Shown piece by piece: positions 9,269-30,918 of a DNA stretch of 64,000 bases. The position numbers were made by a program, and so were the translations under genes. The first letter of the stretch is position 1. Each line of letters starts with the position of its first letter. Under the pieces are notes generated by a model that was given only the letters and a program-made list of their open reading frames with translations, searched no databases and was not told where the DNA came from. The DNA lies in assembly GCF_030464345.1 (NCBI RefSeq), contig NZ_VCYH01000004.1, positions 124,001 to 188,000 of the forward strand, in the 5' to 3' direction. This DNA comes from Methanoculleus frigidifontis (lineage in GTDB: Archaea; Halobacteriota; Methanomicrobia; Methanomicrobiales; Methanoculleaceae).

Positions 9269-10498
9269 ATGGTACACTCCACCATGCGTGAAAGATTCCT
9301 CACGGCCGTCTGCATCCCGGCGATATGCATCGCGCTGTTCCTCTGTGCGGCCCCCGCCGCGGCAGAGACCGGCTGGGTGACAGAAGGAGTATCCGAAAAT
9401 ACAACCAGTGCACTGGGCGGGAAGATCTCCGGAGATTCCATCCTCTACCTCGGCGGGGCGGAAGGGATCGACCAGTCGCAGAACAGGATCTACCTCTACA
9501 GCATCCTGACCGGCGATCAAAAGATCATCGGCAGCCCGTCCGTGAATATGACCGTGACGGGAGAGGATATTTCAGGCGAGTACGCAGTATGGTTCGAAAC
9601 CCCCGTCGTGGACTTCACGCTGAACGAAACCAGCGCTGCACCGAACCGGGTTTGCCTCTACTCGCTCCGGAGCGGTTCGACGAACGTCCTCGATACGCCG
9701 GACACCGCGGAGTGGCCGAAGATCGACGGCGACCGAATTCTCTTGACGGATGACTCCGGCGACTCGTGCAACGTCACCGTCTCCCTCCACGACATCGCCA
9801 CCGGGACGAGCGAAGCGGTCTGCGAGCTGCCGATCATCGATCCCGCGGGCGTCTGCTTCGCCGGCGGCCGGATCGCATACCTGAGGTACGACGGCCTGTA
9901 CCTGTATTCTCTCGACACCGGAGCGAACACGACGGTATTTCGCAATGTCTTCGGGAACGAATCCGGCGCCGACGTCGGAGACTATGCGATGGGCGGCGAT
10001 TACCTGATCTACCTCAGGCATAGCGTCAACTATGCAGGTCCCGAAAAAGGCATCTCCGACGAACCGTATCTCTATCGCATCTCGACGGGAGAGGCGAAAC
10101 GCCTCGACCCGAGAACGGGGGATTTTGCAGAGTCTTCGAACATCTCGAGCGCAGAGGAGAAGAACCTCCAGATCTCTTCACCGTTCACCGACGGAGAACG
10201 GATCGGATGGGTGTATTCCGAGAATTCACCGGGGTCGACGATCGTTCTCTGCGACCCGCAGACCAGAACGGTTGAAACGATTCCGTTGGACGGCCTGGCT
10301 GACCGCATAGCCCTGGATGGTAACCGGATGGTCTGGGTCGAAACGCACTTCCCGTCGTTCCACGGAGAGCTCATCTATGCCGAGGAGCATGCCGGCACCG
10401 CGGAGACGGCGCCTGCGTCCGCGCCCGGGTTCACCGCAGGCATCGGTATCGTTGCCCTCATGGTAGCGCTGGTGCTGCTTGCGGGACGGAGACGATGA
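9269..10498 (+). CDS. surface beta-propeller-like protein with PGF-type C-terminal anchor
   Basis: A 409-residue secreted protein. A signal peptide (FLTAVCIPAICIALFLCAAP then AAAE) precedes repeated units of about 45-60 residues of the kind ILYLGG...QNRIYLYSILTGDQKI, VCLYSLRSGSTNVLDTP and LYLYSLDTGANTTVF, which look like TolB/WD-type propeller blades. The C-terminus has ASAPGFTAGIGIVALMVALV then RRR: a Pro-Gly-Phe motif, a membrane stretch and basic residues, as in PGF-CTERM proteins processed by archaeosortase. Many Asn-X-Ser/Thr sites fit S-layer-type glycosylation. ATG 9269 is used; ATG 9284 (MRERFL) is equally possible. It probably sits on the cell surface; ligand unknown. Confidence 0.8.
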   Translation: MVHSTMRERFLTAVCIPAICIALFLCAAPAAAETGWVTEGVSENTTSALGGKISGDSILYLGGAEGIDQSQNRIYLYSILTGDQKIIGSPSVNMTVTGEDISGEYAVWFETPVVDFTLNETSAAPNRVCLYSLRSGSTNVLDTPDTAEWPKIDGDRILLTDDSGDSCNVTVSLHDIATGTSEAVCELPIIDPAGVCFAGGRIAYLRYDGLYLYSLDTGANTTVFRNVFGNESGADVGDYAMGGDYLIYLRHSVNYAGPEKGISDEPYLYRISTGEAKRLDPRTGDFAESSNISSAEEKNLQISSPFTDGERIGWVYSENSPGSTIVLCDPQTRTVETIPLDGLADRIALDGNRMVWVETHFPSFHGELIYAEEHAGTAETAPASAPGFTAGIGIVALMVALVLLAGRRR

Positions 10499-10508
10499 AA
10501 CTATACCC

Positions 10509-10516
10509 TTTTTTTT
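10509..10516 (+). terminator. oligo-T terminator after the surface-protein gene
   Basis: Eight consecutive T residues begin eleven bases after the stop codon at 10498. Archaeal transcription ends at such T-rich tracts without needing a hairpin. Confidence 0.55.
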
Positions 10517-10540
10517 ACCGCGCCGGCAATCAGCAGGGAT

Positions 10541-10741
10541 TTACTGCAGAGGGTGACCGGTACGTATCCTGTCGAACATCCAGGTTAGGGGACTCTCGTT
10601 ATTCATCCCGGCGCTCCCTTTCCACAGGACAAAGTAGACAACCGGCGGGAAGGTCAGGAGGCTGATCAGATAGGTCGCAATCACGATGGCTGCGGCAAGC
10701 CGGCAGTCGCAGCCGTATCTGCCCGCGACCACCGCCGCCAC
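10541..10741 (-). pseudogene. C-terminal remnant of an AEC-type (auxin efflux carrier) permease
   Basis: An open stretch of 66 residues with one strong membrane segment: GCDCRLAAAIVIATYLISLL then TFPPVVYFVLW. The pattern of a short residue block, a long hydrophobic helix and a Thr-Leu-Pro-like kink matches the last segment of AEC-family permeases, which normally have ten helices and about 300 residues. Nothing upstream (10742-10881) encodes the missing nine helices, and the tail after the helix is polar and non-typical. It is read as a decayed fragment; a real 66-residue membrane protein is the alternative. Confidence 0.4.
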
Positions 10742-10816
10742 CCGCTCTTGCCGGACAACGAACTGCTGACTGCGCGAATCAGGCAGGATACGTGGGTGCG
10801 AAAATTTCCACCGATC

Positions 10817-10847
10817 AAAAAAAGAAGGGTTTTCGCGTGGAAAACCC
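10817..10847 (-). terminator. hairpin plus T-run terminator of the FMN glutamate synthase gene
   Basis: Read on the minus strand, GGGTTTTC pairs perfectly with GAAAACCC around a five-base loop (10827-10847) and is followed by TTCTTTTTTT. This lies about 35 bases after the stop at 10882. The form is like a bacterial intrinsic terminator. Confidence 0.7.
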
Positions 10848-10881
10848 GGGCCAAAGAACGCAGAAAACCCTGGATATCCTA

Positions 10882-12471
10882 TCAGGAGTCCAGGATCGCT
10901 TCCGCAGCGTCCCGGTATGCTTCCATGACGTACGGGATACCGGAGACCTTCTCGGCCTCTTCCGTCAGCGCCATCAGGTCGCTCCGGGAGACGGTCTTTA
11001 AGTTGAAGTTCCGGCTGCCGGCCATGATCTGCTGCATCCCGGTTCTGAACTTCTGGGCATACGAGTAGATACCAATGGCGCCGAGCGGGATCTCGTCGAT
11101 CCGGTCGTGGTACTTCTCCTTGAGGTCCTCGTAGTAGACGAAGATCTCGGGGACCGAACTGCCGTACTTGGCGACGGTCTTCGGGATGTCGCCGCTCTCA
11201 AGCCACTTGGCGATATTCTTGCCGGTCATGCCCGGGATCATGAGGGCACGGCCCATGCAGATCGCCTTGACGTAGGGGCTGCCCATGGCGAGCGCCTTGA
11301 AGGCGTTTGCCTCGTCGGCGAATCCACCTGCGATGGCGAGGTCGGGGACACGGATACCGCGCTCGCGGAGCCTCTCTGCGAACTGGTAGGTGAGCGCCTC
11401 GATGTAGAAGGTCGGGATACCCCACTCGTTCATCATCGGCCAGGGGCTCATGCCCGTGCCACCCGGCGCACCGTCGATGGTGAGCAGGTCGATCTTCGCT
11501 TCGGCACTGTAGCGGAGCGCCATTGCAAGCTCGACCGCCGAGTAGGCGCCGGTCTTGAGGGTGATCCGCTTGAAACCGATGTCGCGGAGCCGGTCGACCT
11601 CTTCGAGGAAGCCTTCCCGGGTCACGAAGCCGAGACGCGAGTGGCGCTCGAACTCCTTGAGTGCACCGTCCTCAAAGGCCTTCTGAACCTCGGGGAGAGT
11701 CGGGTCGGGGAGAACGACGTAGCCGCGGTTCTTCAGTTCGGTTGCACGGGAGAGGGTCTTGACCTTGATCTCGCCGCCGATGCACTTGGCACCCTGGCCC
11801 CACTTGAGCTCGATCGTCTCCAGGTTGTGCTTCGAGGAGACATACTCCGCGGTTCCAAGCCGCGTGTCCTCCACATTCAGCTGCACCAGGATCTCACCAT
11901 AGCCGTCGTGGAACTTCTTGTAGGTGTTGATACGGCGGTCCATCTCGGGCGATTCCTTGACCTTACCCTTGTTGTCCAATACAAGTTCGGGGTCAACGCC
12001 ACAGACGTTCTCACCGCAGACCAGTGTAATACCGGCGATTGCTGCACCGATGGCAAAGTGCTCCCAGTTCGCACGGGCGATCTCGGTCGAGCCGAGTGCA
12101 CCGGTGAAGATCGGGACACGCATCGGGACCTTGATATCCCAGCCGTACTCGGTCTCCGTGTCAACGGCCGAGAAGACGGCACTGTCGGAGTTTGCCTCGA
12201 CGCCCTCGGGGAGACCCTTGGCGCCCACGGCATAGCCCTGGATATTCAGGTGGGAAAAGTCAATAGGATAGTCTTTGTCTGCGCCTGCAGTCATTTCACC
12301 AAACGGCCCCGGGTAGAGGACTTCCCTGCCCCGGAACGAGGAGAGCCAGACTTCGCAGCTCCCCTTGCATCCGTCGACACAACGGGTGCACAGACCGGAC
12401 ATCGGAACGACGTTCCGCGACCGGTTGGTGGTTCCAATAGCTTCGTTAGCATTCGGTTGTCTAAGATTCAT
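10882..12471 (-). CDS. FMN-binding glutamate synthase family protein
   Basis: A 529-residue protein equal to the central synthase domain of glutamate synthase, where FMN and a 3Fe-4S cluster convert 2-oxoglutarate and ammonia to glutamate. The N-terminus has a Cys cluster (CTRCVDGCKGSC near 27-38). Synthase motifs follow: ELKWGQGAKCIGGEIKVKTL near 218-237 and LLTIDGAPGGTGMSPWPMMN near 330-349. FADEANAFKALAMGS near 391 and ICMGRALMIPGMTG near 412 complete the TIM barrel. No amidotransferase domain is attached. Start ATG 12471 follows GAGGT. It lies beside glnA and opposite the split glutamate synthase, so the island encodes two synthase-domain proteins. The true substrate of this type is not certain. 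Confidence 0.88.
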   Translation of the reverse strand: MNLRQPNANEAIGTTNRSRNVVPMSGLCTRCVDGCKGSCEVWLSSFRGREVLYPGPFGEMTAGADKDYPIDFSHLNIQGYAVGAKGLPEGVEANSDSAVFSAVDTETEYGWDIKVPMRVPIFTGALGSTEIARANWEHFAIGAAIAGITLVCGENVCGVDPELVLDNKGKVKESPEMDRRINTYKKFHDGYGEILVQLNVEDTRLGTAEYVSSKHNLETIELKWGQGAKCIGGEIKVKTLSRATELKNRGYVVLPDPTLPEVQKAFEDGALKEFERHSRLGFVTREGFLEEVDRLRDIGFKRITLKTGAYSAVELAMALRYSAEAKIDLLTIDGAPGGTGMSPWPMMNEWGIPTFYIEALTYQFAERLRERGIRVPDLAIAGGFADEANAFKALAMGSPYVKAICMGRALMIPGMTGKNIAKWLESGDIPKTVAKYGSSVPEIFVYYEDLKEKYHDRIDEIPLGAIGIYSYAQKFRTGMQQIMAGSRNFNLKTVSRSDLMALTEEAEKVSGIPYVMEAYRDAAEAILDS

Positions 12472-22436: not shown

Positions 22437-22557
22437 CTCTGCATCCACCTACAAATGGTGATCGCTCGTGATCATACCTGCTCAGTACCGACAGCCACAG
22501 CAGGATATTCCGCAAGAAGAATGCAGGCGAGCGCCACTGCCACATGCCATTTCATTC

Positions 22558-22576
22558 AAAAATGGGAACCATTTTT
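22558..22576. promoter_or_regulatory. inverted repeat before the nrdH-like gene
   Basis: AAAAATGG, three bases, CCATTTTT lies 14 bases before ATG 22591. Eight-base perfect arms in a GC-rich genome are unlikely by chance. It is a candidate operator or 5' hairpin for the ribonucleotide reductase genes. Confidence 0.5.
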
Positions 22577-22590
22577 ACGGCAAGCGACGA

Positions 22591-22890
22591 ATGATCATCG
22601 ATCGATTCGGGGGTGTCATTATACCAGATACATCGCAGTTTATTGTCTATACGCTTGAATTTTGTCCAAATTGCGAAATTTTAAAGGAATTTCTCACCAC
22701 AAAGGGTGCCGGCTACACCGAACAGGATATGATGTCCGCCGAAGCACTGACCGAGCTTCGGATCAATGGCGTATTCGCTCAGGAAGCCCCGGTGCTACAG
22801 AAGGACACCTCGTTTTACACATCGCAGGATCTCTTTCCGGGAGGCGTTTTTCAGGAGAAGTTGGTTGCCGACCTGATCGCGGAGGCGTAA
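22591..22890 (+). CDS. nrdH: glutaredoxin-like protein (NrdH-type)
   Basis: Small thioredoxin-fold redox protein, 99 residues. The core is SQFIVYTLEFCPNCEILKEF near 15-34, with the redox pair CPNC at about 25-28, and then a cis-Pro-like EAPVLQKDTSFYTSQDLFPG near 65-84. It lies five bases upstream of the anaerobic ribonucleotide reductase. In methanogens such as Methanosarcina barkeri, a glutaredoxin-like NrdH reduces the class III enzyme, so the same job is inferred here. ATG 22591 is the first ATG in the family region; no strong ribosome binding site is seen. Confidence 0.88.
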   Translation: MIIDRFGGVIIPDTSQFIVYTLEFCPNCEILKEFLTTKGAGYTEQDMMSAEALTELRINGVFAQEAPVLQKDTSFYTSQDLFPGGVFQEKLVADLIAEA

Positions 22891-22895
22891 AGATC

Positions 22896-25800
22896 GTGCC
22901 GCGCAAATCGAAGCAGACGACGCTTGCCGGAGACTTTATCCCCGTCTTCCCGAAGGTTCGGACCTCCCGGGGATATCTCCTCGACTGGAACCGCAAAAGG
23001 ATCATCCAGCAGGTCATCGAGGAGACGAAACTCGTCGAGGTCTTCTATGACGACGAGGGCGCCACGGACGATATCGCCGAGGAGGTGGCGCGGCGGGTCG
23101 AGAAGAAGATCCAGATGCTGGGGCTGCAGTCCCTCTCGGGCCCCCTTATCCGCGAGATTGTCAATATGACCCTGCTCGAGCGGGGAATGACCCAGTACCG
23201 CAACGTCTGCACGCGCGTCGGAACACCGGTCTTCGACGCGCACCTCATCGACGTCGGCAGGGGATTTGAGGCGAAGGACAACGCCAACCTCCAGGAGAAC
23301 GCGGAGACTTCGCACAAAAAAAAGGCGGACAAGATCAGCAAGGAGCAGTACCTCCTGCAGCTGCCGCCGCACCTCGCAGACCACCACCTCTGCGGCAACC
23401 TCCACATCCACGACCTGGAATACTTCGGGACGAGGCCGTTCTGCATCGACGGGAGCACGGCCATACCAGTGCGGTCGGACGGCCGTATCCGGAGCGTCAG
23501 GCCTGACGAACTGCCGTTTGCAGAAGACGACGTGCTGCGTCCGGACGACCTCGCCGCTCTCACGCCGCAGGGCTGGCGGCGCGTCGTCAAGGTAACCCGG
23601 CGCCGGGTGGACGACGGGGAAATGCTCCGTATCAGGACATCGCGGGGTCGATCGCTCCTCGTCACCGGCGAACACCGGATCCCTGTCCGGTTGGAGAGCG
23701 GAATGGCGATCAAGCGGGCGGACGAGGTCCGGAGCGGTGATGCGCTCTATCCGATCACCGCAGCGGATCCGGTCCGCGGCGAGCCGGTCCGCGAACTCGA
23801 TCTCGTCAGGGAGCTCCCCGCATCGGTGCCGGCGGACCTCCTCGAGAATACCTACGTCCACGGCGCCGCCGCATACTTTGCTGCGGTGGTGGAGAGCGGG
23901 CGGGCTGACTCGTTCACCGCGATCTCGCGCACTCTCGGGATCGAACATCGGAAACAGTGGTACACCCGCGGCATCATGCCGGTCGCGGTCTTCAGGGCAT
24001 TCTGCGAGGAGTACGGCATCACCGGGTACTCCGATCTCACCATCGTCACGGCAGGAAGCGGGCACGAGCTCCCTGCAATCTTCCCGCTCACCCCCGAGTT
24101 CGCCCGCCTTCTCGGCCTCTTCGTGGCCGAAGGGAACTACAACGTATCCCATGCCGCGGGGCAGTACAACCTCGCGATCACCGAGAACCGGCAGGCGGCG
24201 GCCGTCCAGGTCGCGGCACAAAATACCCTTGCGACCTACGCGACGCTTACCGGCGGCAACCCGGACACGACAACCATCTACGGCGTCCCGGTCGAGCGGA
24301 GCCGCGCGATGCAGGTCTACTTCGGCGGAAAGACACCCTACCTCCTCTTCCACTACGTCTTCGGGATACCCGAAGGGAGCGCAGGAAAACGCCTTCCCTG
24401 GATCGTCTACCACCTCGACGATGTCCTGCTGCACGAGTTCCTCTCCGGCCTCTTTACCGGCGACGGTTCCGCGTACTACCGCCCGGAGAAGTCCGACTGC
24501 ATCGTGAACTACACGACGGCATCGGAGACGCTCCGCCAGGAGCTCGCGCTCCTCCTGACGGCCCTCGGCATGCAGCCGCAGATCGTCGAGCTCTACCGGG
24601 GCGACTCCAGTCGGCGGACGCTCTACCGCATCCAGCTCTATGACCGGAAGAACATCGAGACCTTCGCACGCTACGCCTCGTTCCTCGACGGCCGCCAGGA
24701 CCATATCGACACATTCCTCTCGCAGGTTCGGGGAATACGCCGCATCGGGAGAGACGAGCGGGTTACCGCGATCGAGCCCGCGGAACCGTCAGGAGCATAC
24801 GTCTACGACCTCTTCATCGAGGGGGACGGGAGCGAGGAGAGCCACACCTTCTTCGCCTCGGACGGCCTCCTTCTCCACAACTGCCAGGACTGGGATCTCC
24901 GCTACTTCTTCTACTACGGCCTGATGCCCGACGGCAACGGGACGAAGGCATCGGTCGCCGGGCCTGCAAAGCGCGCAGAGGTGGCGGTCCTGCACGCGGT
25001 CAAGGCGCTCGGGTCGGCGCAGACGAACTTCGCCGGCGGGCAGGGCTACTACAACTTCCTCACCTTCATGGCGCCCTACTTCGAGGGAATGGCCTACGAG
25101 GAGATCAAGCAGCTCATGCAGATGTTCGTCTACGAGATGACGCAGATGATGGTCGCCCGGGGCGGCCAGGTCGTCTTCTCGTCGGTGCAGCTCTCACCCG
25201 GCGTGCCTACCCTCTGGAAGGACAAGCCCTGTGTCTCTCGCGGCCTTGTCTGGGACGGCACAGAGGGCGCACCCTTGCGGACCTACGGGGAGCTCGAGCG
25301 GGAGGTGCGGCTCCTCTTCAAGGCGCTGATGGAGGTGATGCTGGAGGGCGACTACTGGGGCAAACCCTTCAGTTTCCCGAAGCCCGAGATCAGCATCGAG
25401 CCCGACTTCATGACCGAGGACGAGGAGTTCAACCGCGACAACCCCGACATCCCCACCTACCAGGATCTCTACCTGATGACCTTCGAGCTCGCCTCCAAGT
25501 TCGGCACCCCCTACTACGACAACCAGATCCCCCCCTACCGCGGTGCAGGGGAGGGGATCTCGTGCTACCAGTGCCTTGCCGGCGACGAGCTCGTCCCGGT
25601 CACAGGGCCGGACGGGAGGATGCGCATCACCCGGATCGAAGACCTCTTTGCCGAGGCGGCCCGAAACGGCAGGCGGATCGATCCTCTCGGGACGGAGTTC
25701 GCCTACTACGATGCACAGACCCCGAGTGCCGACCCGGTCGGCATGAAAGCTTCTCTTCGCCCATTCCGCGGGGTGATGCGGCGAAAATATGCAGGGGAGA

Positions 25801-27956
25801 TGCTCCGGATCACTCTCGACTCGGGGCGACGGATCACCGTCACCCCGGATCACCCGGTCTTCGCCCTGGAGAAGGGGACGTTCACAAAACGGACGGCGCG
25901 CGAACTCCGCACCGGCGACTACCTGCCGGTGCTCAGGAACACCGACTTCTGCGACGAACCCCTGCGGGAGATCGACGTCGCCGTGCTTCTCCGCGATGCC
26001 GGGCATGCGGACGAGATCGTCGTCCGGGACGGCGATGTGAACATCCGGAACGCAAAACGCCGCGGCCTGCCGGAAAGCCTCCCAGTAACCCGGGAGCTCG
26101 TCAGGTTCCTCGGCTACTACCTCGCCGAGGGGTGTAGCGACGCGAGCGGGCGGCGGTATACGATCAGGCTCTCGTTCGGGAAAGACGAGACAGACCTTAT
26201 CCGGGATGCGGCGGCATGTATCAGGACGGCGTTCGGATACGATGCGCTCGTCCAGGAAGAGAAGACCGCCGTCAACGTCACCATCAACAGCAAACTCCTC
26301 TATCTTCTGCTCGACGCCCTCGGGTGTGGCAGGTTCGCCGCCGGGAAGCGTGTGCCGCACCTGCTCTTCAATGTCGACCGCAACCTCGTGGGCGCGTACC
26401 TCGATGCCGCGTTCCGCGGCGACGGGAACATCGATATTCAGACGACGGAGCAGGGCTCCTCCATCCACCGCGCCCGCGGCATCCGGATGAAGGTTGTCTC
26501 GCGTGAGGCCGTCCAGACGCTGGTCTGGCTCGCCCAGCGTATCGGCGTCCGGATGAACTACGTCGAGGAGACACGGCCTGTCACGCACCCGCAGACGGGC
26601 AGGCCGTATCCCCTCACGGCCTACACCTGCAGACTGACCGCCCAGGATCAGATCCGGCAGTTTGCGGAGAAGACCGGATACGGCGGGGCGGCGGTCACGG
26701 GTACGGGAAGGCGGACAGGAGGGATCTTCACCCGCATGCCGATCGAAGCAAGCGGCCTTGCCTATACCGATCTCACCTACGCAAGCCAATACGCGGCATC
26801 GGGATTCGGGCAGGTGCAGGTATCGCTCATCCGCCCCGAGGCGCAGACAGGACAGGTACAGCGGCTCATCGACGGCGACCTCCACCCGGTTCGCGTCCGG
26901 TCGATCGAGGCAGTACCTTGTGAAGGATACGTCTACGACCTCGTCGATGTTGCGGGAACGCACACCTTCTGCAACGCCCTCGGAGTCCTGACCGGCAACT
27001 GCTGCGCATACCAGTTCTCCTCCGTTGCCGAGAAAGACGACCAGTTCGAGGACAAACTCTACTTCCGGGACGGGAAGCACTTCTCCATGGGCTCCTGGCA
27101 GGTGATGTCGATCAACTGCCCGCGGGCGGCATATCTGGCGGAAGGCGATCAGGAGCAGCTCTTTGCCGAACTCAAAACGCTCATGGACATCGCCGTCGAG
27201 CTCTTCCGGATCAAACGGCGCTGGATGTCGCTGATCCGAACCAACGGCCGGATGCCCTTTGCCATGCAGCGCCCGAAGGACCCGAACACCGGGGAGCGCG
27301 GCGCGATCGCCGTCGACCTCGAGGGGCTCGTCTACACCATCGGCGTCGTCGGCGTCAACGAGATGGTGCAGCATTTCACCGGCTCCCAGCTCCACGAGTC
27401 AAAAGACGCCTTCCGGCTTGCCGTGCGGACGATGACCGAACTCGAGATGTACGCACGCGAACTCTCGGAGCGCCACGGCATGACGATCGCCCTCGCGCGG
27501 ACACCCGCCGAGACGACCGGCCAGCGGTTCGCCGTCGCGGATCTGCTCGACGAACGGTTCCGTGACCACGCCATCAAGGTCGTCAAGGGCGACGCAGAGC
27601 AGGCGCTCACGATGCTCGGCACGACGCTCGACCTGCCGATCTATTACACGAACGGGACGCACGTCACCCCCGCAGCCCCGGTCCCGCTCACCAAACGGAT
27701 GGAGATCGAGCACGTCTTCTTCCCGATCGTCGACGGCGGAAATATCTTCCATGTCTGGCTCGGTGAAGCACGCCCCGATCCGCGAGGTCTGATGGAGATG
27801 GCGATGAACCTCTGCCGCAGGACGCAGATCGGCTACTTCGCCTTCACCCGCGACCTGACCGTCTCCTTAAAGGAGTTCCAGGAATACCGGCGCGAGGCTG
27901 CAGGGGCGGAGACCGGCATCGAAATCGCATCCCCCGACTACCGGTCGAGTGCGTAA
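22896..27956 (+). CDS. nrdD: anaerobic (class III) ribonucleotide reductase with two inteins
   Basis: It makes deoxyribonucleotides from ribonucleotides without oxygen. The precursor is 1686 residues from GTG 22896, after GGAGGCG. An ATP-cone lies at the N-terminus (KVRTSRGYLLDWNRKRIIQQ near 18-37). Two inteins of 480 and 476 residues interrupt it. The spliced protein would have 182 + 230 + 318 = 730 residues. Both insertions sit at conserved Cys segments (TRPF before CQDWD; GISCYQ before CCAYQF). The usual C-terminal Cys4 zinc ribbon and RVxGY glycyl-radical loop are not visible: after RTQIGYFAFTRDLTVSLKEF the protein ends within about 30 residues. Activity therefore needs testing. Confidence 0.93.
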   Translation: MPRKSKQTTLAGDFIPVFPKVRTSRGYLLDWNRKRIIQQVIEETKLVEVFYDDEGATDDIAEEVARRVEKKIQMLGLQSLSGPLIREIVNMTLLERGMTQYRNVCTRVGTPVFDAHLIDVGRGFEAKDNANLQENAETSHKKKADKISKEQYLLQLPPHLADHHLCGNLHIHDLEYFGTRPFCIDGSTAIPVRSDGRIRSVRPDELPFAEDDVLRPDDLAALTPQGWRRVVKVTRRRVDDGEMLRIRTSRGRSLLVTGEHRIPVRLESGMAIKRADEVRSGDALYPITAADPVRGEPVRELDLVRELPASVPADLLENTYVHGAAAYFAAVVESGRADSFTAISRTLGIEHRKQWYTRGIMPVAVFRAFCEEYGITGYSDLTIVTAGSGHELPAIFPLTPEFARLLGLFVAEGNYNVSHAAGQYNLAITENRQAAAVQVAAQNTLATYATLTGGNPDTTTIYGVPVERSRAMQVYFGGKTPYLLFHYVFGIPEGSAGKRLPWIVYHLDDVLLHEFLSGLFTGDGSAYYRPEKSDCIVNYTTASETLRQELALLLTALGMQPQIVELYRGDSSRRTLYRIQLYDRKNIETFARYASFLDGRQDHIDTFLSQVRGIRRIGRDERVTAIEPAEPSGAYVYDLFIEGDGSEESHTFFASDGLLLHNCQDWDLRYFFYYGLMPDGNGTKASVAGPAKRAEVAVLHAVKALGSAQTNFAGGQGYYNFLTFMAPYFEGMAYEEIKQLMQMFVYEMTQMMVARGGQVVFSSVQLSPGVPTLWKDKPCVSRGLVWDGTEGAPLRTYGELEREVRLLFKALMEVMLEGDYWGKPFSFPKPEISIEPDFMTEDEEFNRDNPDIPTYQDLYLMTFELASKFGTPYYDNQIPPYRGAGEGISCYQCLAGDELVPVTGPDGRMRITRIEDLFAEAARNGRRIDPLGTEFAYYDAQTPSADPVGMKASLRPFRGVMRRKYAGEMLRITLDSGRRITVTPDHPVFALEKGTFTKRTARELRTGDYLPVLRNTDFCDEPLREIDVAVLLRDAGHADEIVVRDGDVNIRNAKRRGLPESLPVTRELVRFLGYYLAEGCSDASGRRYTIRLSFGKDETDLIRDAAACIRTAFGYDALVQEEKTAVNVTINSKLLYLLLDALGCGRFAAGKRVPHLLFNVDRNLVGAYLDAAFRGDGNIDIQTTEQGSSIHRARGIRMKVVSREAVQTLVWLAQRIGVRMNYVEETRPVTHPQTGRPYPLTAYTCRLTAQDQIRQFAEKTGYGGAAVTGTGRRTGGIFTRMPIEASGLAYTDLTYASQYAASGFGQVQVSLIRPEAQTGQVQRLIDGDLHPVRVRSIEAVPCEGYVYDLVDVAGTHTFCNALGVLTGNCCAYQFSSVAEKDDQFEDKLYFRDGKHFSMGSWQVMSINCPRAAYLAEGDQEQLFAELKTLMDIAVELFRIKRRWMSLIRTNGRMPFAMQRPKDPNTGERGAIAVDLEGLVYTIGVVGVNEMVQHFTGSQLHESKDAFRLAVRTMTELEMYARELSERHGMTIALARTPAETTGQRFAVADLLDERFRDHAIKVVKGDAEQALTMLGTTLDLPIYYTNGTHVTPAAPVPLTKRMEIEHVFFPIVDGGNIFHVWLGEARPDPRGLMEMAMNLCRRTQIGYFAFTRDLTVSLKEFQEYRREAAGAETGIEIASPDYRSSA
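23442..24881 (+). mobile_element. intein 1 of NrdD with LAGLIDADG endonuclease
   Basis: A 480-residue in-frame insertion from Cys1 (CIDGSTAIPV) to the terminal His-Asn (GLLLHN), with Cys as the first residue of the following extein. Block B is VTGEHRIPV, near residue 70 of the intein. The homing endonuclease motifs are RLLGLFVAEGNYN and FLSGLFTGDGSAYY, two LAGLIDADG-like helices with acidic ends. All splicing residues are canonical, so this should be a working self-splicing and possibly homing element. Confidence 0.93.
25572..26999 (+). mobile_element. intein 2 of NrdD with LAGLIDADG endonuclease
   Basis: A 476-residue in-frame insertion from Cys1 (CLAGDELVPVTG) to GVLTGN, with Cys as the next extein residue. 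Block B is VTPDHPVFALEKG. The endonuclease helices are FLGYYLAEGCSD and YLDAAFRGDGNID. The penultimate residue is Gly where His is usual, a known but less common variant that can slow the Asn cyclisation step. Sequence is unlike intein 1 apart from the shared domain plan, so the two were gained separately. Confidence 0.92.
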
Positions 27957-28019
27957 ATCCGGCCAAACCCTCTTTTCCGATAGGTTCTTCTGATGGGCGG
28001 GAAGAGAAGAGATATACGT

Positions 28020-29051
28020 ATGATCGGCATAGATGCGCCCCTTCTCGCCATCGATATCGGCAGGGGAACGCAGGACATTCTGGTGTACGATCCTGACCGG
28101 CCGCTTGAGAACAGCATCAAGCTCGTGCTGCCGTCCCCGACCGAGGTTGTGGCGGCGGCAATCAGGCAGGCAACGCTCCGCGAGCAGCCGGTGTTTCTGG
28201 AAGGCCACCTGATGGGCGGCGGGGCGAACGTGAAGGCGGTGCGGCAGCATCTGGCCGCCGGGCTTGCGGTCTCTGCGACCAGAGAAGCCGCAGCGACCAT
28301 TCACGACGATCTCGATCGTGTCCGCGCCCTCGGCATCCGGATCGCCGACAATGCACCCACCGATGCGGTTCCAATTCACACGACCGATTACATGGAGCGG
28401 GAACTGCGGGCGACGCTTGAGATGTTTGCGGTCGAGTACCCGGCGAAGGTCGCGGTGGCGGTGCAGGATCACGGGTATTCACCGCACCGCAGCAACCGGA
28501 TCCGGCGGTTCGAACTCCTGCGCGAGCGGCTCGATGCAGGCGACTGGCACCTCGACTCCCTCATCACTGAACCACCGCTGCCCGATATGACCCGGATGCG
28601 GGCAATCCTGAAACAGGCGCCCGGCGCGCTCGTGACCGACACCGGCCCGGTCGCTCTCATCGGAGCACTCTGCGACCCGTGGGTGCGCTCCCGGGCGGAC
28701 GACGGGATCATCCTGGTCAACGTCGGCAACGGCCATACCCTCTGCTGCACCCTGAAAGGCGAGGAGATCTACGGGTTCTTCGAGCACCACACCGCGTCGC
28801 TCGACCCGCACAAACTCCAGCACTATATCTGGCGGCTTGCAGACGGACTCCTGACAAGCGAGGAGATATTCGATGACGGTGGACACGGCGCAGCGGTGAG
28901 AAAGCCGCTCTTCACCGAGATCATCGCCGCCACCGGCCCGAACCGGCAACGCTTCCTTCCGGATGCTTACCAGGCAGCGCCCTTCGGCGACATGATGCTG
29001 ACCGGGAGCTTCGGGCTCCTGAAGGCGTGGGAACGGATCCGGCAGGGATGA
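28020..29051 (+). CDS. DUF1786-family protein downstream of nrdD
   Basis: A 343-residue protein matching the DUF1786 family, which Pfam labels a putative pyruvate formate-lyase activating enzyme. No CxxxCxxC radical-SAM motif is present. Instead there are actin-like ATPase-type phosphate loops: LLAIDIGRGTQDILVYD near 7-23 and IILVNVGNGHTLCCTL near 227-242, suggesting an ASKHA-type nucleotide-binding fold. A MGGGANVK loop (near 63) and conserved DHGYSPH (near 150) may form an active site. It lies 63 bases after nrdD, another glycyl-radical-family gene. Start ATG 28020 fits the family; ATG 27993 is possible. Confidence 0.75.
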   Translation: MIGIDAPLLAIDIGRGTQDILVYDPDRPLENSIKLVLPSPTEVVAAAIRQATLREQPVFLEGHLMGGGANVKAVRQHLAAGLAVSATREAAATIHDDLDRVRALGIRIADNAPTDAVPIHTTDYMERELRATLEMFAVEYPAKVAVAVQDHGYSPHRSNRIRRFELLRERLDAGDWHLDSLITEPPLPDMTRMRAILKQAPGALVTDTGPVALIGALCDPWVRSRADDGIILVNVGNGHTLCCTLKGEEIYGFFEHHTASLDPHKLQHYIWRLADGLLTSEEIFDDGGHGAAVRKPLFTEIIAATGPNRQRFLPDAYQAAPFGDMMLTGSFGLLKAWERIRQG

Positions 29052-29061
29052 ACCGGCAGGT

Positions 29062-30798
29062 TCACCCGAGCACCGCGTGAACCGTTCCCTGGAGCCATCC
29101 CACCATGTTTACAAACGCAGCGATAATACCGTCGAGAGGCGATGCGCCGGTCGCCTGCAGTGGTTGTGCAGGCGACTGCAATGCATACAGACGCTGCAGA
29201 TCCTCTTTTGACAGGCTCTGGAGTTGGAGAAGGTTCGAGGCGGACGCAGCGAGTATCTCGTCCTCGCTCACACCGCGCTGCCATGCATCATTCAGCGTCT
29301 CCGACGCCTGCATGGCCGAAGAGCTCATCCCCACCAGGGTGTAGCAGTCGGGAAGGTCGGGATACGGCCCGTCACGCGCCATCGCGGGGCGGACGGTGAT
29401 GACCGGGTCGGAGACGACCGATGCGAACGCCTCGTCCCGGCCATCGGTGAAGACGTAGGCGCGGAACGAAAACATCCCGGGATACGCGGTCATATTGGTT
29501 ATCTTCCCCTTTTCCGTGGCAGTCAGATTTTCCAGGGCGATTCTCCCTACGAGCGTGGTGACATCGAAACTCCAGGCACTCCTCTCACCGGCCATCAAAG
29601 TCGCCGGGGCCGCAGCCCGCGTGATCCGGTAGACCCCCGTCTCACCCGGAGGAGGCGCGAGGACGACAAAGATGGGGTCATCCCCTGCGAACGATCGGTT
29701 ATAGGCTTCCAGGGTCACCAAAACCCTGAATGTCTCTTCTTCAAGCGCTACCCGGGGTTCGCCCGATGACAGCATACTCTCGTTCAACAGCCAGGAGAGA
29801 TAGGCAACCTTGGTGCCGTTCTCCATGATCCCGATCGAAGCGGGCGTATGGGTCACGTAGACGCCCATGCCGCGGATGCGGAGATCTTCATCGGGCGGGG
29901 CGGCGGATTCCTCCATCGGCAGGAGCGTTGCTGCAGGGGCCGTAGCGCCGGGAACCGGGGTATGCGAACTTTCCCCTCCCCATACCAGCACGGCAGGCGT
30001 TGTGGGAACGGCCGCAACGAAGCGGGAGGCCCCGGACGAAGATGCAACCGGGGTGGCACGGGTCGTCAGCGGGCGATCGATCTCATTCGCCGGATCGGGT
30101 GTTATCACCGGAGATGCTCCGGTATCGTCATTCTCTGTAGGCACCTGCGTCGGTGCGGTGGTCGTTGCGGTCACGGCCGGTGTTTCTGTCCCGGCCGGCG
30201 CCGTGGTCACCGGCTTTGTGGTCGGTGCTGTTGTCGTCGGGTTTGTCGTCGGGGAGGTGGTCGGAACCGTTGTAGTCGGGGAGGTGGTCGGAACCGTCGT
30301 AGTCGGGGAGGTGGTCGGAACCGTTGTGGTCGGGGAGGTGGTCGGAACCGTCGTGGTCGGGGAGGTGGTCGGAACCGTCGTGGTCGGGGAGGTGGTCGGA
30401 ACCGTTGTGGTCGGGGAGGTGGTCGGAACCGTCGTAGTCGGGGAGGTGGTCGGAACCGTTGTGGTCGGCGCCGGAGAAGGAGTTGGTGTTGCGGTCGGCG
30501 TTGCCGGAGTTTCCGGCACCTTCTGGGAAGGAGGGGCGTCACCACCCGGCACGCGTTGTCTCCGCTCATCATCCCTGTCATCGCCCTCCGCAGTATCCTC
30601 ACTTGCCCAGTAGGTTGCCCGGATGACCATACAGGAGGGGAGCAGAGGGCGGATCTTGTCAGCCGCTGCGGGCAGGGACGAGAGCAGACCCGGAGCATCC
30701 GGGCAGCCAGACCCACGATCAGGGAGAGAAGACCAGGGGAGCACCCCAACGCCGGAGATCACGACCAGTACCAATACCATTGCCAATACCCGCATCAT
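29062..30798 (-). CDS. secreted surface protein with Thr/Pro repeats
   Basis: A 578-residue unrecognised exported protein. Start ATG 30798 follows AGGAGGTG. The hydrophobic segment MRVLAMVLVLVVISGVGVLP is a signal peptide or anchor. A Thr/Pro/Ser-rich linker around residues 85-200 holds eight exact nine-residue units TTTVPTTSP, typical of O-glycosylated stalks on archaeal surface proteins. After it come a folded region (GVYVTHTPASIGIMENGTKV near 310 onwards) of beta-rich sequence and a helical C-terminal region ending VNMVGWLQGTVHAVLG. No sorting motif is seen at the C-terminus. The partner and function are unknown. Confidence 0.75.
   Translation of the reverse strand: MMRVLAMVLVLVVISGVGVLPWSSLPDRGSGCPDAPGLLSSLPAAADKIRPLLPSCMVIRATYWASEDTAEGDDRDDERRQRVPGGDAPPSQKVPETPATPTATPTPSPAPTTTVPTTSPTTTVPTTSPTTTVPTTSPTTTVPTTSPTTTVPTTSPTTTVPTTSPTTTVPTTSPTTTVPTTSPTTNPTTTAPTTKPVTTAPAGTETPAVTATTTAPTQVPTENDDTGASPVITPDPANEIDRPLTTRATPVASSSGASRFVAAVPTTPAVLVWGGESSHTPVPGATAPAATLLPMEESAAPPDEDLRIRGMGVYVTHTPASIGIMENGTKVAYLSWLLNESMLSSGEPRVALEEETFRVLVTLEAYNRSFAGDDPIFVVLAPPPGETGVYRITRAAAPATLMAGERSAWSFDVTTLVGRIALENLTATEKGKITNMTAYPGMFSFRAYVFTDGRDEAFASVVSDPVITVRPAMARDGPYPDLPDCYTLVGMSSSAMQASETLNDAWQRGVSEDEILAASASNLLQLQSLSKEDLQRLYALQSPAQPLQATGASPLDGIIAAFVNMVGWLQGTVHAVLG
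30251..30466 (-). repeat. eight tandem 27-base units inside the surface-protein gene
   Basis: Eight in-phase 27-base copies of a GGGGAGGTGGTCGGAACCGT-type unit (plus-strand reading) differ only at third positions such as GTA/GTG and CGT/CGTT. They encode TTTVPTTSP. Near identity suggests recent slippage or recombination and possible copy-number variation. Confidence 0.95.
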
Positions 30799-30918
30799 GG
30801 TGCACCCACACCTCCTAAAAGCGGGCTCAGACAGTAGAACGTGAGGATTGCTCTCAGAAAATCGAGACTGGAACAGAAGCAAAGCCCGCCTTCACGGGAA
30901 GGGATAATACATACACGG

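Follow-up and report, generated by a model that had tools for sequence, protein, structure and literature searches.

A probable split class III ribonucleotide reductase in Methanomicrobiales with a putative glycyl-radical subunit encoded apart from its catalytic chain

The nrdD gene in the window (the analyzed 64,000-nucleotide stretch of Methanoculleus frigidifontis contig NZ_VCYH01000004.1) very likely specifies the catalytic chain of a class III ribonucleotide reductase that is split into two obligate subunits. Judged from sequence, a fused nrdD would have undergone fission once, with the glycyl radical now supplied in trans by a protein of 120 amino acids, a reading to which we assign a probability of about 0.92. 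The two genes are conserved, co-occur and were lost together, the split chains form a single clade, and the genes are adjacent in two viral contigs. The radical would reside on the small chain, which would form a complex with the large one and receive the radical through an NrdG2-type activase.

The gene and its parts are listed in Table 1. The Pfam NRDD model (PF13597) covers the large chain over profile positions 1-510 of 562 (E = 1.6e-122 for the whole protein), and TIGR02487 scores 431 bits against a cut-off of 326. In alignment, the spliced chain retains the RPFCQDWD and CYQCCAYQF catalytic cysteine motifs, as in fused methanogen NrdDs. Approximately 100 N-terminal residues precede the NRDD-matched region, and no Pfam match to an ATP-cone was obtained in the large chain at E 1e-3. 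The protein ends with the final barrel strand, TQIGYFAFTRDLTV; a zinc ribbon and a glycyl-radical loop on the chain itself, a defining feature of NrdD, are missing. After TQIGYFAFTRDLTVSLKEF, extein 3 continues for 25 residues to the stop codon at 27954-27956, and neither a CxxC pair nor an RxxGY motif was found between this stop and the next gene (27993). The original prediction, made from the window alone, had noted that both motifs are absent from the last extein and the sequence that follows, and the halt of the NRDD match at 510 of 562 bears this out. Its proposal that the IGYF stretch might carry the radical is rejected, as this strand is also present in fused homologues, where a separate RVTGY loop lies downstream of it. 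In alignment, the fission point coincides with the position of the first zinc-ribbon cysteine in fused NrdDs. Both inteins are placed at active-site cysteine segments; one same-genus gene (L145) reads uninterrupted through the intein A site in alignment, and a same-genus relative (G037) is intein-free.

Table 1. Features of the nrdD locus, with positions counted from the first letter of the window.
Feature	Position	Strand	Basis or remark
Glutaredoxin-like (NrdH-type) protein, VYTLEFCPNCEILKE	22468..22890	+	TIGR02196 weak match; 5 nt upstream of nrdD
nrdD catalytic (large) chain, two inteins included	22896..27956	+	GTG start; spliced product 730 aa
Extein 1, to ...FGTRPF ahead of the conserved Cys of RPFCQDWD	22896..23441	+	Splice borders, alignment
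Intein A, 480 aa, LAGLIDADG; immediately before the conserved Cys of RPFCQDWD	23442..24881	+	Pfam LAGLIDADG_3, TIGR01445
Extein 2, CQDWDLRYFF ... GISCYQ	24882..25571	+	Splice borders, alignment
Intein B, 476 aa; within CYQ/CCAYQF	25572..26999	+	Pfam Intein_splicing, borders
Extein 3, CCAYQF ... to catalytic barrel end	27000..27956	+	Splice borders
IGYF, barrel strand common to aligned fused methanogen NrdDs	27828..27839	+	Alignment
Variable tail in place of zinc ribbon and glycyl-radical domain	27864..27953	+	Alignment

When the genome of the window was searched with the Pfam NRDD model, a stand-alone ORF of 120 residues was found on another contig (G000:C11:47651-48013; 124-codon open frame), matching positions 506-562 of the model above cut-off (E = 3.3e-14). 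A genome search for a free glycyl-radical domain had been proposed with the original prediction, and because the missing piece lies on another contig it was beyond a reading of the window only. The protein, MNWNAEQRALAEKYQRLDDIPVGERRYKCHSCHYVVAETPCPHCGETHLEIMCPLDHCSCPHTVIERIEYCPLCGQAVCPECGSHDVVQISRVTGYMQDVAGWNAGKQQELKDRVRYSAV, contains two zinc-ribbon motifs and an SRVTGY motif (Gly95), and among the models scanned it matches NrdD models only. No match to PF01228, the glycyl-radical family of pyruvate formate-lyase (PFL), was found in the window's genome, and by this model the small protein is not of the GrcA/YfiD type. Its C-terminal part aligns to the glycyl-radical domain of the solved Prevotella copri NrdD (E = 1e-6), while its N-terminal part bears a weak likeness to Spt4-type zinc ribbons (E = 0.04). 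The predicted structure has a mean pLDDT of 70 but falls below 50 over residues 99-120, and at E 0.001 it matched no PDB fold; because the confidence of the radical loop is low and no fold was matched, the model says nothing for or against docking.

Across 94 small proteins, C29, C32, C41, C44, C53, C60, H62, C71, C74, C79 and C82 are at least 98% conserved, as are R92, T94, G95, Y96, W103 and N104. Conserved cysteines beyond the glycyl-radical domain would also be expected if this zinc-rich protein were only a redox or activase adaptor and the large chain drew on another radical source. We consider such a role very unlikely, as the R-x-T-G-Y and W-N motifs and the residues that follow are among the most conserved and align to the radical loop of a solved NrdD, and the NrdG2-type activase is co-conserved and co-lost. 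Comparison with relatives gave pN/pS values of 0.11-0.39, which are rough because many pairs have almost saturated dS, and the small gene is under purifying selection. Its surroundings are conserved in 24 loci from six families: genes for deoxyhypusine synthase and OMP decarboxylase precede it at differing distances, and those for CbiZ and an OB-fold (RPA-like) protein follow it. In the window's genome, a fusion of CbiZ with a cysteine-rich domain (PF04071; L007:8011-8889, on G000:C11) overlaps the stop codon of the small gene by 4 nt (ATGA); the CbiZ-small gene neighborhood is kept in 24 of 24 loci, though CbiZ is a cobamide enzyme.

Among 132 high-quality Methanomicrobiales genomes (completeness at least 90%, contamination at most 5%), both chains were present in 118, neither in 12 and a single piece in two. 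Of the latter, one has the large chain only (G109) and the other, in 810 contigs, the small chain only (G194); the missing pieces are probably assembly gaps. All 12 genomes with neither chain belong to one genus (g20, family f6), and weak small-protein matches in this genus (E about 1e-4) were left out of the counts because it has no NrdD match. Within the family of the query, the small gene occurs in 39 of 40 genomes, and its relatives are 77-86% identical to the query. The best 80 small-gene loci in named genomes all fell in Methanomicrobiales genera or families or in unresolved Euryarchaeota bins. Among the matches listed for the order, intact large chains end at profile positions 510-516, single-contig genomes included, and the same end point recurs across six families; intein-free frames span about 720-870 codons and intein-containing ones about 1,160-1,765. 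Outside the order, the NrdDs listed in a phylum-wide search span essentially the whole model in one frame, with a few cut matches in fragmented genomes, and the cellular NrdDs inspected from outside Methanomicrobiales are fused. The large and small genes were never neighbors in the cellular genomes examined; on host chromosomes they are distant and not co-transcribed.

In a tree of the trimmed barrel, 19 split chains form one clade (support 100/100) nested within fused methanogen NrdDs, and 22 small proteins form one clade (100/99) among fused radical domains in a tree built on 42 columns only. Both trees and the fission point are consistent with one gene fission and the gain of an extra N-terminal cysteine-rich part, and the fission, which parted the zinc ribbon from the last barrel strand, probably took place in an ancestor of Methanomicrobiales. 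The two inteins held by the window gene bring to mind another arrangement, in which a split intein or frameshifting rejoins both pieces into one normal NrdD. This has a vanishingly small chance of being correct: the only two intein N-terminal regions found belong to the complete inteins A and B, with none in the small protein, which begins MNW and carries no intein C-half; relatives without inteins are split at the same site, and the two genes lie hundreds of kb apart in single-contig genomes such as G159.

The presence of other reductases bears on whether the split enzyme functions. The class I/II reductase model PF02867 was matched in 108 of the 132 high-quality genomes. Each of the remaining 24 has matches to both NrdD chains (in G164 the large chain is cut), and a second model, for class II, found nothing in 23 of them and a fragment in one (G054). 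Split NrdD is thus the sole reductase detected in 23 genomes, including the single-contig genomes G159, G129 and G182. As these 23 genomes have no other detectable reductase, the two-part enzyme must therefore work there, and the small part is apparently essential where no other reductase exists. This weighs directly on the reading that the early stop is damage, through truncation, pseudogene formation or a sequencing error, and leaves a dead enzyme, for which the large chain's lack of a domain common to all fused NrdDs would speak. The original prediction had allowed for a truncated gene and had named a shared end point in close relatives as a ground for refutation; relatives in six families, including single-contig genomes, end identically, and this order-wide conservation refutes damage. 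The missing domain is, moreover, encoded elsewhere under purifying selection, and we give a dead enzyme almost no credence. The split enzyme is not alone in the window's genome, which also encodes a class II enzyme. Genus g20, devoid of NrdG2 and of the two NrdD chains, encodes a reductase of class I/II type, which is class II where tested (G064).

A candidate activase was found at G000:C3:250510-251217, where an NrdG2-type radical-SAM protein scores 143.7 bits with TIGR02495 against a curated cut-off of 131.15. With the classical NrdG model, the window's genome gave sub-threshold matches only, one of them this same protein; the search for nrdG urged in the original prediction thus failed for the classical form and succeeded for the NrdG2 type. 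NrdG2 orthologs are present in 118 of the 132 high-quality genomes, and the 14 without one include all 12 of g20. The joint loss of the large chain, the small chain and NrdG2 from one genus links the three; because this co-loss was probably a single event, the co-occurrence does not amount to many independent observations. We infer that the NrdG2-type protein is the activase of the split enzyme. The glutaredoxin-like protein is the probable reductant; relatives of its gene adjoin the large chain in 17 of 21 loci. Directly 3' of the large chain lies a DUF1786 protein (27993-29051), described in Pfam as a putative pyruvate formate-lyase activating enzyme, with relatives in 11 of the 21 loci. It is followed on the minus strand by a protein with a long Thr/Pro-rich repeat (TTTVPTTSP; 29062-30882).

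In the mechanism we propose, the NrdG2-type radical-SAM activase would abstract a hydrogen from Gly95 of the small chain to generate the glycyl radical, and the small chain would dock in the large chain's barrel, at the position that the radical domain takes in fused enzymes. The radical would then be handed to the active-site cysteine, giving a thiyl radical in the YQCCAY loop of the large chain, and the adjoining glutaredoxin-like protein would re-reduce the active site, resupplying electrons. More speculatively, the extra zinc-ribbon motif may serve to anchor the small chain, either on the large chain or on the activase. The original prediction had allowed for a radical on another protein, and the stand-alone glycyl-radical-domain gene in this genome and throughout the order supports that option.

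Relatives of both chains are also encoded by IMG/VR contigs, which are taken as viral because IMG/VR classifies them so and because genes resembling those for tail, baseplate and terminase proteins were recognized in them by eye. In a 135-kb contig (L297), the small gene has an end at 9795 and a truncated large chain of 671 aa occupies 10007-12022. In a 128-kb contig (L301), the small gene (9324-9728), a glutaredoxin-like gene (9756-9998) and a truncated large chain of 690 aa (10001-12073) lie on one strand. Both viral contigs with a truncated large chain carry the small gene within about 300 bp, so that two genes distant from each other on host chromosomes are neighbors wherever the truncated chain is virally encoded. 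No separate small gene was found in the stretch examined of viral loci with a fused NrdD (L294, L295, L296, L298, L299 and L307). In a tree that includes viral sequences, a branch (96/95) sets off the truncated chains, viral and cellular alike, and the viral branches are long; a viral large-chain structure predicted without an alignment was uninformative (pLDDT 33). Nine more contigs (L289, L292, L308, L309, L310, L311, L312, L313 and L314) include the small gene but no large chain within the 5-20 kb examined, and large-chain scans gave no match on them, though divergent copies could escape such scans.

These small-only viral contigs recall phage T4 Y06I, which serves PFL, and would fit a small protein that is a spare part only, repairing oxygen-damaged NrdD as YfiD/GrcA does pyruvate formate-lyase, rather than a permanent subunit. 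Precedent exists in YfiD and phage Y06I, which as free glycyl-radical domains restore PFL after cleavage by oxygen, and the paper on these PFL spare parts suggested that other glycyl-radical enzymes might have such parts too (PMC8683613). Like the small chain, YfiD/GrcA and Y06I are stand-alone domains activated by a radical-SAM enzyme that dock on another chain and can be carried by viruses; they differ in serving, facultatively and after oxygen damage, a PFL that has its own domain (PMC8683613). We regard a pure spare part as very unlikely here, as the catalytic chain of the whole order lacks its own glycyl-radical domain and would need the part from the start; any repair advantage of the small chain may be a by-product. 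Returning to the split enzyme, it is conceivable, with the odds somewhat against, that this obligate two-subunit glycyl-radical enzyme keeps its radical on a distinct 13-kDa subunit that can be replaced. This arrangement might allow an oxygen-cleaved carrier to be swapped without remaking the 80-kDa chain, and viruses of these archaea might raise host dNTP synthesis, or take it over, by encoding only the radical subunit.

To our knowledge, in class III reductases and other glycyl-radical enzymes the radical has been described on the catalytic chain or on a post-damage spare part. A search of an open-access library found no report of a class III enzyme in two chains or of an NrdD radical domain encoded on its own. 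Fused NrdDs of other methanogens and related archaea share with the split enzyme the barrel, the RPFCQDWD and CYQCCAYQF motifs and the C-terminal SRVTGYxQxVSGWN loop, but are one polypeptide with a three- or four-cysteine zinc ribbon, and their radical domain is not preceded by the additional N-terminal zinc-ribbon motif. Among solved structures, the small protein is matched best by the glycyl-radical domain of P. copri NrdD (8p23; residues 676-739, Gly711), which is reported to be mobile, and ordered in the substrate-bound monomer (PMC11226230); it is covalently attached, whereas the small protein is free and has an extra N-terminal cysteine-rich part. NrdJa/NrdJb of Pseudomonas aeruginosa, called in 2015 the only split reductase known in a non-viral organism, likewise consists of a catalytic chain plus a small one that forms the C-terminal part, but is a cobalamin-dependent class II enzyme encoded in one operon, whose small chain serves disulfide exchange and not radical storage (PMC4520616). 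Phage nrdD genes with introns, inteins or breaks also have their coding sequence in more than one piece, but these are neighboring fragments produced by mobile elements or breakage, with no order-wide conserved free glycyl-radical domain (PMC3653736).

With a naturally split class III reductase, oxygen damage and the installation, docking and transfer of the radical could each be followed on individual chains, and, unlike the PFL spare parts, its small part would be permanent and order-wide. The free-standing viral small chains lead to testable predictions on viral control of dNTP supply, and for annotation the case is a warning that a reductase without a radical loop need not be dead. Additional nrdD copies occur in two genomes of the survey: one encodes a divergent full-length NrdD of 565 aa alongside the split enzyme (L149, G040:C1:590703-592373), and another carries the large chain twice, approximately 16 kb apart and with equal scores (G008, C1:285076-286791 and 300796-302511).
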